38,807 nucleotides of DNA, taken from the NCBI RefSeq assembly GCF_000428045.1, contig NZ_KE386615.1:135-38941 (forward strand), given 5' to 3'. The notes beneath the pieces are model-generated. The model had not been told where the DNA came from. It worked only from the letters and a program-made list of their open reading frames with translations, and did not search any database. Origin of the DNA: Sedimenticola selenatireducens DSM 17993. Its GTDB lineage: Bacteria; Pseudomonadota; Gammaproteobacteria; Chromatiales; Chromatiaceae. Position numbers and translations under genes: made by a program. The first letter of the stretch is position 1. The number at the start of each line of letters is the position of its first letter. This document shows, piece after piece, positions 23,121 through 35,913 of this stretch.

Positions 23121-24077
23121 CTATTGGACCGGGCGCAGGCTGAGCAACCAGATGGCAGCACTGCCGGCAAAGAAAAACAGCGCGATGGCACCGAACGCCT
23201 TGAGCCGAAAACGCCGCACCAATTCAAAATCGGCCAGGGTGGAGAGCAGGAAGGGGTGGCGGCTGGAGTTGGGCGAGCGCAGCGTGTGCTGCACCAAATG
23301 GCGCTGCTGTTCGGCATGGGCCAGGCGTGCCTGGGTCTGTGCCGTCTGGCGTACCATATCCCACTCGCGCGTATCGATCTGACCATCGCGGTTCAGGTCG
23401 AAGCGGGCCAGCAGCTGCGCCCGGTCCTGTTTCCATTCGCGCAGCAGACCCCGCATCCACTCACTCTGGCTCCGCCGGTGATCCAGATCATCCAGGCTTT
23501 TGAACAGGCCGATGGCATAGAGCCGGTCGCCGGGGTAGAGGCGCTCTTCGGTATAGCGGTAACGTCCACTGCCGATCTCCTGGCTGAGGAATCGGGCCAG
23601 CTTCAGCAGTGGTGTCTGTTTCACCCGCTGCCGGCCGGGTGCGCGATTCACCGGGTAGCGCTCACTGCCATACCAGACACTGCGGTCGCTGGGGGTTACC
23701 TCGGCCCCCTCGGGATCGATCAGGCAGTGACCGGTCTCATCCTCCAGCAGGAACAGGGCGTCGCTGGTATCGCTCTCCACCGTGCGCCAGTTCTTGTCGC
23801 CGCTTTTCTCGATCTTATAGCGGTACCAGCAACAGTCGATACCGGTCAGTGGGGCAAACACCGGTTCACCCGCCATCAATCGGGCGTTGCCCACCAACTC
23901 CACATAGCCCTGATGGGCGGAGCGGATCCTCGCCGTGGGCGCATCCTCGATCAGACGGGCGCGACCCAGCCAGCGAAAGGCGTAATAGAGACCGGCCAGG
24001 GCGGCAACAGTACAGAACAGTTGCAGCGCCCAGAACTCAAAGTGAGATAGATGGATAAACTGTTCGCTCAGGCTCAT
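23121..24077 (-). CDS. GIDE-domain membrane protein with EF-hand
   Basis: The 318-residue protein has membrane helices near both ends (about 16-36 and 288-312). The region between resembles the GIDE (E3-ligase-like) domain known from MUL1/GIDE proteins and bacterial relatives, about 45-195: VGNARLMAGEPVFAPLTGIDCCWYRYKIE. No RING finger is present, so it is not a ubiquitin ligase. A canonical EF-hand loop follows (D227, N229, D231, G232, I234, D235, E238), predicting calcium binding. It overlaps the end of lemA by 4 nt (ATGA), so LemA and this protein are probably made together. The EF-hand appears to be an added module; function unknown. Confidence 0.8.
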   Translation of the reverse strand: MSLSEQFIHLSHFEFWALQLFCTVAALAGLYYAFRWLGRARLIEDAPTARIRSAHQGYVELVGNARLMAGEPVFAPLTGIDCCWYRYKIEKSGDKNWRTVESDTSDALFLLEDETGHCLIDPEGAEVTPSDRSVWYGSERYPVNRAPGRQRVKQTPLLKLARFLSQEIGSGRYRYTEERLYPGDRLYAIGLFKSLDDLDHRRSQSEWMRGLLREWKQDRAQLLARFDLNRDGQIDTREWDMVRQTAQTQARLAHAEQQRHLVQHTLRSPNSSRHPFLLSTLADFELVRRFRLKAFGAIALFFFAGSAAIWLLSLRPVQ

Positions 24078-31087: not shown

Positions 31088-31144
31088 TGAACAGGGTTTC
31101 TCTGTTCATATAGGAAAAATAGTGCAGGAGCTGGCTTCCTGCAC
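31088..31144 (+). promoter_or_regulatory. Two tandem dyads upstream of the octaheme cytochrome gene
   Basis: Dyad 1: TGAACAG (31088-31094) and CTGTTCA (31102-31108), loop of 7. Dyad 2: GTGCAGGA (31122-31129) and TCCTGCAC (31137-31144), loop of 7. Both are perfect. The second ends 15 nt before the AAGGAAG ribosome-binding site. The surrounding 209-nt intergenic region is markedly AT-rich compared with the genes. They may be operators or mRNA hairpins controlling the cytochrome operon. Confidence 0.55.
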
Positions 31145-31170
31145 TGGCTGATAAATCAAAGGAAGTGTCG

Positions 31171-32886
31171 ATGATGTATGCGAACAAGCGATTAGTCGAT
31201 CCGGCGGCCTGGTTGCTGGCGTTGCTGTTTCCCACTTTGCTTATCCTGGCGGATGCCCATGCGGCGGCGGAGATCGAGCGGGGTATTAACGAATATGCCG
31301 ATACCAGCCAGTCTCACCTGAAGTCGCCGGATGACCCTCCGGCCGTGGTCCGGGTCAGCAGTTCCACCGCCGATCACGCGGAGTTCAAGGAGCTGCAGGG
31401 ACCCTTCGGCAGTGGTCCGGAGGTGACCAAGGCGTGCCTGGGCTGCCATAACGAGGCGGGTCATCAGTTTATGAAAGGCATTCACTGGACCTGGGAATAC
31501 CAGCATCCGGTGACCGGCCAGACTCTGGGCAAGAAGCACCTGGTCAACAATTTCTGCACCAATGCTCGGGGCAACGAGGGGATGTGTGCCCAGTGTCACG
31601 CCGGTTATGGCTGGAAGGACGACAGCTTCGATTTCAGCGATCAGGGCAACATCGACTGTCTGGTCTGTCATGACGCCACCGGCAGCTATTACCGGACCCC
31701 CAACTCCCAGGGTAATGCCGCCTGCTCCGTCATGTTCGAGGGCAAGCAGCCAATTGATTGGGCCAAGGTGGCGCAGAGCGTGGCCCTGCCCGACCGCTCG
31801 AACTGCGGCACCTGCCACTTTTATGGGGGCGGTGGCGACGGGGTCAAGCATGGTGATATGGATTCATCGCTGAAGCATCCGGACAAGGCCCTGGATGTGC
31901 ACATGGACGCCCAGGGCCTCAATTTCAGCTGTACCGAGTGTCACCAGGGGGAGGGACACCAGTGGTCCGGCAGTCGCTACAACATGGATGCCAAGGACAG
32001 TGAGGGCACCGGCAAGCCGGGACAGCGTCGTCAGGTGGCCACTTGTGAAAGCTGCCACGGCGACACCCCCCATCCGGGCAACAACCTGAAAGCGGTCAAG
32101 CTTAACGGGCACACCGACCGGGTCGCCTGCCAGACCTGCCATATCCCCACCTTTGCGCGTGGCGGTGTCGCCACCAAGACCGACTGGGACTGGCGAACCG
32201 CCGGCAAGTTGAAGGACGGTGAAGGCTTCAAGCTGAAGGAGTACACCCAGGGCAACGGCGAACACCGCGCCACCTACAAATCGATTAAGGGTGATTTTAA
32301 ATACGGTGAAAACCTGAAGCCCAGCTACGCCTGGTTTGACGGTGTGATGAACTACACCACCATCGACACGAAATTCGACCCGCAAGCGGGCCCGGTAAAA
32401 ATCAACAGCTTCAACGGTGCCTACGATGACCCGGCATCCCGCATCTGGCCGTTCAAGCAGATGCACACCACCCAGCCCTACGACAAGGGCAACAACACCC
32501 TGGTCTACATGCACCTGTGGGGCGATGATCCGGACTCTTTCTGGGGCAACTACGATTTCGGCCGCGCCATCAAGGTGGGCATGGAGAGGAACGGCAAACC
32601 CTACTCCGGGGAGCACGGTTTTATCGACACTGTCTCCTATTGGCCCATCACCCACATGGTGGCCCCCAAGGAGCAGGCGCTGGCCTGCGCCGAGTGCCAC
32701 GCCAAAGAGGGTCGCCTGAGTGAGCTGAACGGCTTCTACATGCCGGGACGTGACGGCTTCGGCTGGCTCGACATACTCGGCTATATGGCCGTGATCGGTG
32801 CGTTGTTGGTGGCGCTTGGACACGGCATGGTGAGGATTGTGATGTGCAAGAAGCGGGTCACTGAACACTGCAAGGACGGGGAGTAA
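31171..32886 (+). CDS. Membrane-anchored octaheme cytochrome c, Otr (tetrathionate reductase) type
   Basis: The 571-residue secreted protein has a signal peptide (hydrophobic 12-27, cleavage near AHA at 31) and eight CxxCH heme sites: C89, C139, C163, C212, C254, C292, C320 and C506. A large heme-free segment of about 180 residues precedes the last site. This fits the octaheme tetrathionate reductase (Otr) family, whose Shewanella member reduces tetrathionate, nitrite and hydroxylamine in vitro; the physiological substrate is open. A C-terminal membrane helix (about 532-557, LDILGYMAVIGALLVALGHGMV) anchors it, which the soluble Shewanella protein lacks. The ATG at 31171 has AAGGAAG upstream; a GTG at 31165 and an ATG at 31174 are alternatives. 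A cytochrome b gene follows after 5 nt. Confidence 0.9.
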   Translation: MMYANKRLVDPAAWLLALLFPTLLILADAHAAAEIERGINEYADTSQSHLKSPDDPPAVVRVSSSTADHAEFKELQGPFGSGPEVTKACLGCHNEAGHQFMKGIHWTWEYQHPVTGQTLGKKHLVNNFCTNARGNEGMCAQCHAGYGWKDDSFDFSDQGNIDCLVCHDATGSYYRTPNSQGNAACSVMFEGKQPIDWAKVAQSVALPDRSNCGTCHFYGGGGDGVKHGDMDSSLKHPDKALDVHMDAQGLNFSCTECHQGEGHQWSGSRYNMDAKDSEGTGKPGQRRQVATCESCHGDTPHPGNNLKAVKLNGHTDRVACQTCHIPTFARGGVATKTDWDWRTAGKLKDGEGFKLKEYTQGNGEHRATYKSIKGDFKYGENLKPSYAWFDGVMNYTTIDTKFDPQAGPVKINSFNGAYDDPASRIWPFKQMHTTQPYDKGNNTLVYMHLWGDDPDSFWGNYDFGRAIKVGMERNGKPYSGEHGFIDTVSYWPITHMVAPKEQALACAECHAKEGRLSELNGFYMPGRDGFGWLDILGYMAVIGALLVALGHGMVRIVMCKKRVTEHCKDGE

Positions 32887-32891
32887 TCGAC

Positions 32892-33557
32892 ATGGCAAAA
32901 CGAGAGAAACATGCAGTAACCATCTATACCCGTTATGAACGCTTCTGGCACTGGACCCAGGCCCTGCTGATTTTCCTGCTGGCGTTCACCGGTTTCGGCC
33001 TGCACGGTACCCACCATCTGCTGCCGTTTTCCAAGGCGGTGATGCTGCACACCTTCGCTGCCATTGCACTGATCCTGCTGTGGATCTTTACCACATTCTG
33101 GAATTTCACCACCGGCAACTGGCGCCAGTTCCTGCCCAACACCAAAGGGTTGTTCGCGGTCATCCGCTACTACGCCTGGGGTATCCTGTTTGGTGAGGAT
33201 CATCCCCACAAAAAGACCCTGCGGCGCAAACAGAATGCCCTGCAGGGGCTGGCCTATCTCACCTTCATGGTGCTGATCGGTCCGGCGCTCTGGCTCACCG
33301 GCATTATTTACCTGCTGTACGATCTCTGGAACGAGATCCCCGGCGCTGCCAATGGCCTGTTCGTGGTCGCCTTTCTGCATACCGCAGCGGCGTTCCTGAT
33401 GGTCACCTTCGTCATTATCCACATCTACATGACCACCACCGGCAAGACCCCGCTGCACTACATCAAGACCATGATCAGCGGCGTCGAGCGCGTCGAGTTG
33501 ACCGAGGTGGAGCGCGCCTATCTGGCCGAGGAGCATCCGGAACGGCTGAAGGAGTAA
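32892..33557 (+). CDS. Membrane cytochrome b subunit (PhsC/HydC-like)
   Basis: Di-heme b-type integral membrane protein of 221 residues with four strongly hydrophobic segments (about 18-37, 53-75, 110-135, 157-180). Likely heme ligands are His in RFWHWTQALL, MLHTFAA and FLHTAAAFLMVTFVIIHIY. The family transfers electrons between the quinone pool and periplasmic partners (thiosulfate reductase, hydrogenase, formate dehydrogenase). It lies 5 nt after the octaheme cytochrome gene, with its SD (GGGGAG) overlapping that stop, so the two form a unit. The expected flow is quinol to cytochrome b to octaheme cytochrome; the reverse cannot be excluded. Confidence 0.92.
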   Translation: MAKREKHAVTIYTRYERFWHWTQALLIFLLAFTGFGLHGTHHLLPFSKAVMLHTFAAIALILLWIFTTFWNFTTGNWRQFLPNTKGLFAVIRYYAWGILFGEDHPHKKTLRRKQNALQGLAYLTFMVLIGPALWLTGIIYLLYDLWNEIPGAANGLFVVAFLHTAAAFLMVTFVIIHIYMTTTGKTPLHYIKTMISGVERVELTEVERAYLAEEHPERLKE

Positions 33558-34989: not shown

Positions 34990-35913
34990 ATGAAAATTAT
35001 CCGTATCCTCCTCCCAGTCATGCTGTTCATGTTAACCAGCCCGTCAAGCGCGGCGGATGACTTGGCACTGCAGAAGATTGCCGACAATGTCTATGCAATT
35101 GTCGGTGAGCTGGGGAACCGCACACCGGAGAACCTGGGCAACAATGCCACCTTTGGCTTTGTCGTCACCTCGGCCGGTGTTGTGCTGATCGACTCCGGCG
35201 GTACCTTCCAGGGGGCGCAGCGACTCCATCGGGTGATCAAGAGTGTCACCGATAAACCCGTTGTCACGGTGATCAACAGCGGCGGTCAGGACCACCGCTG
35301 GATGGGTAACGGTTATTTCAAACAGCAGGGCGCCCAGGTCCTGGCCAGTGCGGATGCGGTGGCTGACCAGCGGGCCCGCAGTCGGGACCAGTTCATCCTG
35401 CTGGGCAACCTGGTCGGCCAGGAGGGGCTGGCGGGAACCGAGGCGAATTATGCAGACCAGACCTTCGGCGATAAAACCCGGTTTGAGACCGGTGGCGTGG
35501 CGTTTGAAATCTACCATGCCGGGCAGGCGCACACGCCGGGTGACAGCTATATCTGGCTGCCCGAACAGCAGGTGATGTTCACCGGCGATATCGTCTATAC
35601 CGAGCGCATGCTGGGCGTGGGCGGCCAGTCCAACAGCAAAAGCTGGATCAAGGTCTATGAATCCATGGCGGCCTTTGCACCCGATGTGGTAGTGCCCGGC
35701 CATGGCCACCCCACCACACTCGAAAAGGCTGATGCAGATACCTACGGCTACCTGAAGTTCTTACGCAACAGCGTGGCGGAGTTTTTTGGCAACGGCGGGG
35801 ACATTTCAAAAATCGGTACCGTCGACCAGTCCCGCTACAATTACCTGCTCAATTTTGAAACCCTGGCGGGAAGAAACGCCCAACAGGTATACACCGAGCT
35901 GGAATGGGAGTAG
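34990..35913 (+). CDS. Secreted metallo-beta-lactamase-fold protein with altered metal site
   Basis: Periplasmic MBL-fold protein of 307 residues with a signal peptide (hydrophobic 5-16, cleavage near SSA-A at 22). The fold is evident: NVYAIVGELG, GFVVTSAGVVLIDSGG, HAGQAHTPGDSYIWLP (H181), VMFTGDIVY (D200) and VVPGHGHP (H238). The HxHxDH signature reads S97-G-G99-Q-D101-H102, so two of the three Zn1 histidines are missing, while Zn2 ligands D101, H102, D200 and H238 remain. It may bind one metal. It stands alone between a VOC/2OG pair and a convergent DNA ligase gene, so its role is unknown. Confidence 0.88.
   Translation: MKIIRILLPVMLFMLTSPSSAADDLALQKIADNVYAIVGELGNRTPENLGNNATFGFVVTSAGVVLIDSGGTFQGAQRLHRVIKSVTDKPVVTVINSGGQDHRWMGNGYFKQQGAQVLASADAVADQRARSRDQFILLGNLVGQEGLAGTEANYADQTFGDKTRFETGGVAFEIYHAGQAHTPGDSYIWLPEQQVMFTGDIVYTERMLGVGGQSNSKSWIKVYESMAAFAPDVVVPGHGHPTTLEKADADTYGYLKFLRNSVAEFFGNGGDISKIGTVDQSRYNYLLNFETLAGRNAQQVYTELEWE

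Follow-up and report, generated by a model that had tools for sequence, protein, structure and literature searches.

The soluble Otr protein of Shewanella is described, in the portions of PMC4484225 drawn on here, as reducing tetrathionate, nitrite and hydroxylamine in vitro, as having heme II for its catalytic heme, and as being fed by the soluble STC, which docks to it. Family members in other bacteria have been reported in the company of a cytochrome b. In Thermosulfurimonas dismutans (TDIS_1882/1883), a neighbouring cytochrome b connects Otr with the membrane and tetrathionate reduction is proposed, as far as the relevant passage of PMC4911364 goes, while excerpts from PMC6374484 describe an Otr and cytochrome b pair in Chromatium okenii (CXB77_RS01240/01235) and state that the homologues of the pair in Allochromatium vinosum rise on sulfide. 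The available part of a Caldithrix paper places Otr near an uptake hydrogenase and suggests tetrathionate reduction with H2. Roles in the nitrogen cycle also appear in partial texts: Otr is put forward as a possible nitrite reductase in ammonifying bacteria that lack NrfA (PMC5276818), and an octaheme gene that is not among the known nitrite reductases, and that is not equated here with Otr, is strongly raised in ammonifying cells (PMC12142623).

The gene pair considered here lies at 31171-33557 on the forward strand of a 38,807-nucleotide stretch of DNA from Sedimenticola selenatireducens DSM 17993 (the window), exactly where the original prediction, made from the letters of the window, had placed it. 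The genus Sedimenticola, as GTDB draws it, includes sulfur oxidisers. The pair is a further example of an already published arrangement, the same two-gene arrangement that the passages on T. dismutans and C. okenii describe, with no demonstrated difference from either; what is added is the likeness of its membrane part to FdnI and FdnH, and a clade of relatives with receiver fusions. The original prediction had said that it would fail if the homologues turned out to be a known, characterised quinone-linked enzyme, and in the parts of the literature searched no biochemically characterised homologue was met other than the soluble Shewanella Otr. The pair concerns a probable quinone-linked enzyme of many sulfur-oxidising and other Proteobacteria which is named after the reductase activity of a soluble Shewanella relative, and if the reaction runs in the direction of oxidation, databases label a step of sulfur oxidation as tetrathionate reduction.

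The octaheme protein

The octaheme gene lies in an open frame at 31165-32886 on the forward strand, with the ATG at 31171, which has AGGAAG ahead of it, as the preferred start and with a stop at 32886; its product (31171..32886, 571 amino acids) carries eight CxxCH sites. The Otr-like layout that had been claimed for these sites is borne out by comparisons of family, sequence and fold. The protein scores 616 bits (E 4e-185) against TIGR04315, above the curated cut-off of 375, matches PF11783, finds the solved Otr structure 1sp3 with phmmer at E 2.4e-109 as its sole match, and gives an AlphaFold model that aligns with 1sp3 at a TM-score of 0.83 by target length (Foldseek, E 6e-42). No sequence or fold match to the NrfA or HAO families beats Otr, and Foldseek at E <= 0.001 returns 1sp3 only; a profile search with the octaheme family adds 5ze8, a cytochrome c552, at E 3e-4, of which no single stretch passes alone. 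The second CxxCH site, at residues 139-143 (31585..31599), aligns in 1sp3 with heme II, the catalytic heme of Otr in the same portions of PMC4484225. The other sites, identified by sequence and by invariant columns, are at residues 89-93 (31435..31449), 163-167 (31657..31671), 212-216 (31804..31818), 254-258 (31930..31944), 292-296 (32044..32058), 320-324 (32128..32142) and 506-510 (32686..32700), all on the forward strand.

Kyte-Doolittle analysis gives an N-terminal hydrophobic segment at residues 8-26 counted from the ATG (10-28 from a GTG at 31165) and a single hydrophobic segment past the last heme at 531-549 (533-551 from the GTG), and the AlphaFold model has helices at both, at 11-26 and 531-566. 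The first is a predicted signal region (31171..31263, forward strand) whose end is approximate, with AHA at residues 29-31. The second agrees with the membrane helix claimed earlier for the C-terminus, an anchor helix of residues 531-566 (32761..32868, forward strand) with H551 (32821-32823) and R555 towards its end. The protein and Shewanella oneidensis Otr (1sp3) thus have in common the fold, the eight CxxCH sites, a lysine (K226 and K153, respectively) and seven aligned non-motif histidines, whereas the chain in 1sp3 (443 residues) stops 28 residues past its last CxxCH, has no anchor and is fed by soluble STC, in place of the anchor and cytochrome b found here.

A protein search of the organism's own genome (4.59 Mb, with the pair on contig C9) finds one Otr gene, and a second TIGR04315 match, on another contig, reaches 22 bits, far under the cut-off. 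An Otr paralogue in a genome of the same genus (G002) is identical over its last 480 residues to the locus of Sedimenticola selenatireducens BK-1 (NZ_VMNH01000022.1). Upstream of the octaheme gene, at 31121-31145, there is an inverted repeat, AGTGCAGGA...TCCTGCACT, which is terminator-like on the reverse strand; a promoter scan, for which 1.1 matches were expected, found none.

Predicted heme ligands and the catalytic lysine position

The residue K153 of Otr is reportedly the ligand of heme II (Mowat, in 2004). In the alignment with 1sp3, K226 of the window protein (31846..31848, forward strand) meets this lysine when counted by hand, and seven non-motif histidines, H105, H227, H244, H263, H301, H314 and H495, meet histidines of Otr by eye, with H69 outside the alignment. 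Conservation was evaluated over 46 sequences, consisting of the window protein and those of 45 named loci. No variation occurs among the 46 at K226 or at the motif histidines of hemes 2 to 8, and the single exceptions elsewhere are one K at heme 1, one gap at H69, one Y at H105 and one M at H301; beyond this alignment, the relative L007 has CAQCN rather than CxxCH at heme 2, the catalytic heme. The segment HF-GGGG...KHGD around the heme II lysine is also conserved. The alignment therefore supports the retention of the catalytic lysine position of Otr, with ligation predicted. The original prediction had named loss of this ligand as the outcome that would count against it and structure prediction as the means of finding out; the alignment speaks for the lysine in 46 of 46 sequences, but the AlphaFold model is weak at this place, with pLDDT below 50 at residues 217-226.

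The same residues bear on the proposal that the pair is a quinone-linked conduit which exchanges electrons with other cytochromes of the periplasm or outer membrane, rather than an enzyme with a substrate, for which inner-membrane cytochromes of the CbcL/ImcH type offer a comparison. Such a conduit, which we consider very unlikely, would make sense of an eight-heme chain set on a b-type quinone module, of the docking of STC to Shewanella Otr described in part of PMC4484225, and of the multiheme genes that adjoin ten loci of a sister clade (see below); the conserved heme II lysine and its surrounding segment nevertheless point to retained catalysis, and there is no gene with at least four CxxCH sites near the pair in the window (L001).

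The cytochrome b partner and its likeness to FdnI

The second gene (32892..33557, forward strand, 221 amino acids) starts at an ATG with GGGGAG just ahead of it, 5 nt past the octaheme stop, as had been stated. Its product also conforms to the quinone-type cytochrome b that was predicted: it matches PF01292 with E 7e-23 and 81.7 bits (gathering threshold 30.1), its model has a mean pLDDT of 94.8, and its top solved fold is FdnI (1kqf_C; E 1.8e-4, TM 0.63), followed by hydrogenase-1 cytochrome b, which is found with the profile as well (4gd3, E 5e-5). In an alignment with the K-12 record of FdnI, H20, H53, H163 and H177 correspond to H18, H57, H155 and H169, which we take to be heme ligands, and N115 and Q118 correspond to N110 and Q113, presumably residues of the quinone site. 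All six are invariant in the 40 aligned cytochromes b, so that by its four ligand histidines the protein would be a diheme cytochrome b of the FdnI type. The likeness extends to the partner protein: H551 and R555 of the anchor are invariant in 46 of 46 octaheme sequences, and the tail helix of FdnH has a histidine, at 275, in a similar place to H551 (counted by hand), which we take as a likeness of design and not as proof that the anchors are homologous.

Compared with formate dehydrogenase-N of Escherichia coli (1kqf), the pair has the same b-subunit fold, the four ligand histidines, the counterparts of N110 and Q113, and a histidine in the tail helix of the partner, but its catalytic part is an octaheme cytochrome where that of formate dehydrogenase-N is FdnG/FdnH, and its cytochrome b scores 37.1 bits against TIGR01583, the model for the formate dehydrogenase gamma subunit, under the cut-off of 115.85. 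The best NCBIfam match is the PhsC model PRK15006, at 106.4 bits against a cut-off of 204. PhsC and hydrogenase-1 cytochrome b have the PF01292 family in common with this protein, but it lies under the equivalog cut-offs and their partners are unrelated to the octaheme protein. By analogy, the octaheme and cytochrome b unit looks like a formate dehydrogenase-N with the octaheme protein as its catalytic part.

With slightly better than even confidence, the gene pair is interpreted here as encoding one membrane complex of the FdnI type in which oxidation of a small sulfur (or sulfur/nitrogen) compound in the periplasm is coupled to quinone reduction on the cytoplasmic side. In such a complex the octaheme domain would be exported to the periplasm, and its single C-terminal helix would pack against the cytochrome b, which would contain two hemes b. 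The membrane part would be built like FdnI with the anchor of FdnH, the octaheme protein replacing the catalytic subunits. The catalytic centre would be the heme II of the Otr fold, on its lysine side, from which electrons taken from the sulfur (or S/N) compound could pass along the octaheme chain to the periplasmic heme b, then to the cytoplasmic heme b, and finally to quinone, which would probably be reduced on the cytoplasmic side.

Distribution, fusions and clades

A scan of named genomes found at least 576 relatives, of which the best 80 were kept, and distant, perhaps soluble, members are therefore under-sampled. The carriers among these best 80 include the purple sulfur bacteria Thiocystis, Thiocapsa, Chromatium, Imhoffiella and Thiospirillum, tubeworm, lucinid and other sulfur symbionts, Rhodobacteraceae, Dechloromonas, Thauera, Mariprofundaceae and others; the C. 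okenii locus with the pair is L052, which was not matched to the locus tags of the published description. An excerpt from PMC11237559 gives otr a soxYZ neighbour in a lucinid symbiont. Two further samples were drawn, one of relatives, in which the protein was matched in 26 of 55 genomes (G020 and G047 by fragments only), and one across the phylum, in which the family was matched in 41 of 150 genomes, 24 of them above the TIGR04315 cut-off. From 140 pooled loci a profile search took 132, leaving aside two fragments (L025, L026) and six distant loci (L135-L140), and since five of the 132 repeat another (identical last 480 residues), 127 distinct octaheme proteins remained.

How common the pair is, which had been put forward as a check, can be answered from these 127: a cytochrome b gene is adjacent in 122 (113 plain and 9 with a receiver domain on the cytochrome b), octaheme protein, cytochrome b and receiver share one frame in 3, and in the last 2 the contig breaks off. 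The C-terminal anchor is found in 125 of 125 at a hydropathy of 1.3 (94 of 99 at 1.6, in an earlier set of loci), a call that is trivial in the 3 fused loci because the helices of the b subunit come next. The anchor with a cytochrome b is thus the rule in this sample and soluble Shewanella Otr the exception, and the suggestion that the anchored pair is unusual finds no support, because 125 of 127 distinct relatives carry it, the other two being at contig ends, and because the pairing is already in print.

The coupling of the two proteins is strengthened by the three natural fusions, L125, L127 and the N-terminally truncated L134, in which octaheme protein, cytochrome b and a CheY-like receiver form one open frame. 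In L120, L122, L123 and L128-L133 the cytochrome b and receiver share a frame and the octaheme gene is separate, which makes 12 receiver loci among the 127; in all 5 of these scanned with Pfam, PF00072 follows PF01292. A receiver placed after the end of the cytochrome b would fit a cytoplasmic C-terminus, and the full fusions would place signal transduction and respiration on a single polypeptide.

In a midpoint-rooted FastTree of the 127 cores, the window falls in a clade of 79 tips (support 1.0), in which no locus has another gene with at least four CxxCH sites within 5 kb, where flanks are often only about 1.5 kb long. Ten loci with adjoining multiheme genes fall in a 20-tip sister clade (support 0.95), where L079, L083, L085 and L094 have penta-, octa- and tetraheme genes nearby. 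At L079, the only locus scanned, the octaheme neighbour resembles 4qo5 (E 2.5e-34) as well as hydroxylamine oxidoreductase, and the tetraheme neighbour resembles NapC/NirT, which suggests a role in the nitrogen cycle for that sister clade. The 12 receiver loci belong to a 13-tip clade (support 1.0) whose thirteenth member, by tip order, is L124, where the contig ends inside the cytochrome b. Clustering of the neighbours within 7 kb at 99 loci found no conserved third gene accompanying the clade of the window as a whole; besides the pair itself, the clusters were one at 23 loci that is the cytochrome b gene's antisense shadow, one in scattered positions (13), a pentaheme gene directly upstream (8), and others of at most 7.

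The neighbours at L079 are one reason to consider that the pair could encode a quinol-linked nitrite or hydroxylamine reductase, serving ammonification or detoxification, or else a hydroxylamine or NO dehydrogenase. The nitrite and hydroxylamine reduction by Shewanella Otr (PMC4484225, in part) and the candidacy of Otr in ammonifiers without NrfA (PMC5276818, likewise) agree with this, as does the finding of nrfA above cut-off in none of the 24 Otr-positive genomes of the phylum draw, where NrfA accordingly does not fill the nitrite-reducing role. Against it, nrfA is rare in any case (4 of 150 genomes above cut-off), and the clade of the window shows no other multiheme gene within 5 kb, many flanks being about 1.5 kb; an enzyme of nitrogen compounds is judged unlikely here.

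The distant loci L135-L140 encode an octaheme protein of 713-728 amino acids with the cytochrome b gene upstream, and L135 scores 76 bits against TIGR04315; from sequence these are perhaps a related second family. A TIGR04315 protein containing Sec is listed in the part of PMC13188914 consulted. Selenocysteine was considered for the TGA in the L027 match and rejected, the TGA being an ordinary stop past the anchor that the aligner read through.

Metabolic associations and the direction of the reaction

On the metabolism that the pair tracks, which the original prediction had left to be found, an association was seen with dsrA. This gene is present in 17 of 24 Otr-positive and 19 of 126 Otr-negative genomes of the phylum draw (Fisher p 1e-7), and in 21 of 24 versus 12 of 31 genomes of the relatives draw (p 3e-4), with kinship ignored in both and with oxidative and reductive kinds of dsrA pooled; the relatives draw has three carriers with no dsrA above cut-off, namely G009 and two genomes with pieces at contig ends, G010 and G032. 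The association with soxB is weak (6 of 24 versus 11 of 126, p 0.03, phylum draw).

Where catalysis is periplasmic and quinone is handled at the cytoplasmic side, oxidation makes proton-motive force and reduction costs it, as formate dehydrogenase-N and thiosulfate reductase illustrate, so that reduction of quinone at that side would add to the proton-motive force. The original prediction had offered three options: reduction of tetrathionate, reduction of a nitrogen oxide, or oxidation of a sulfur compound. In view of the FdnI-like residues at the quinone site and of the lineages in which the pair occurs, oxidation is ranked first here, and oxidation of a reduced sulfur compound is our first choice, above respiration of tetrathionate or nitrite, because of this bioenergetic logic, the purple sulfur carriers, the rise of the A. 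vinosum homologues on sulfide (PMC6374484, in excerpt) and the association with dsrA.

The same complex might also run in reverse, with quinol oxidation at the cytoplasmic side driving the reduction, in the periplasm, of tetrathionate or of a sulfur compound related to it. Its fold and lysine are those of Otr, a tetrathionate reducer in the portions of PMC4484225 used, tetrathionate reduction has been proposed for the T. dismutans Otr and cytochrome b (passage in PMC4911364) and, with H2, for the Caldithrix Otr near its uptake hydrogenase (from part of that paper), and the nearest NCBIfam b subunit is that of thiosulfate reductase, PhsC. A cytoplasmic quinol site combined with a periplasmic acceptor would, however, spend proton-motive force, and phototrophic purple sulfur bacteria would have scant use for tetrathionate respiration; this reverse direction is judged improbable.

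Several observations tell against the preferred oxidising, quinone-reducing complex. Shewanella Otr is a reductase in vitro (PMC4484225, as excerpted), and the closest NCBIfam match of the cytochrome b, PhsC, serves a reductase, if under its cut-off (106 bits against 204). Neither dsrA nor soxB is above cut-off in 7 of the 24 Otr-positive genomes of the phylum draw, and many carriers among the best 80 relatives are Rhodobacteraceae, Dechloromonas and Thauera. The HAO-like and NapC/NirT-like neighbours in the sister clade point to nitrogen chemistry, and to the weakness of the soxB association may be added that, according to a portion of PMC11267869, the A. vinosum cytochromes with 7 and 8 hemes are up on pyrite versus sulfide and the cytochrome B561 Alvin_1079 is down, none of these being equated here with the pair.

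A wider generalisation, which is possible but doubtful, is that outside Shewanella the Otr family consists of quinone reductases that make proton-motive force, each an octaheme dehydrogenase on a formate-dehydrogenase-N module, which would serve purple sulfur bacteria and sulfur symbionts in oxidising sulfur, the receiver branch itself taking part in two-component signalling.

The genome of the window (G000) has two dsrA genes above the curated cut-off, with 543 and 537 bits, at C36:23731-24930 and C1:316173-317378, and two are also found in G001, G002, G003, G006 and G008 of the same genus. At 34990-35913, some 1.4 kb beyond the downstream end of the pair, the window encodes a SoxH-related protein resembling a metallo-hydrolase (TIGR04559, 147 bits, under the cut-off of 280), and the protein encoded at 23121-24077 combines a GIDE-type (E3 ubiquitin ligase) domain with a weak EF hand.
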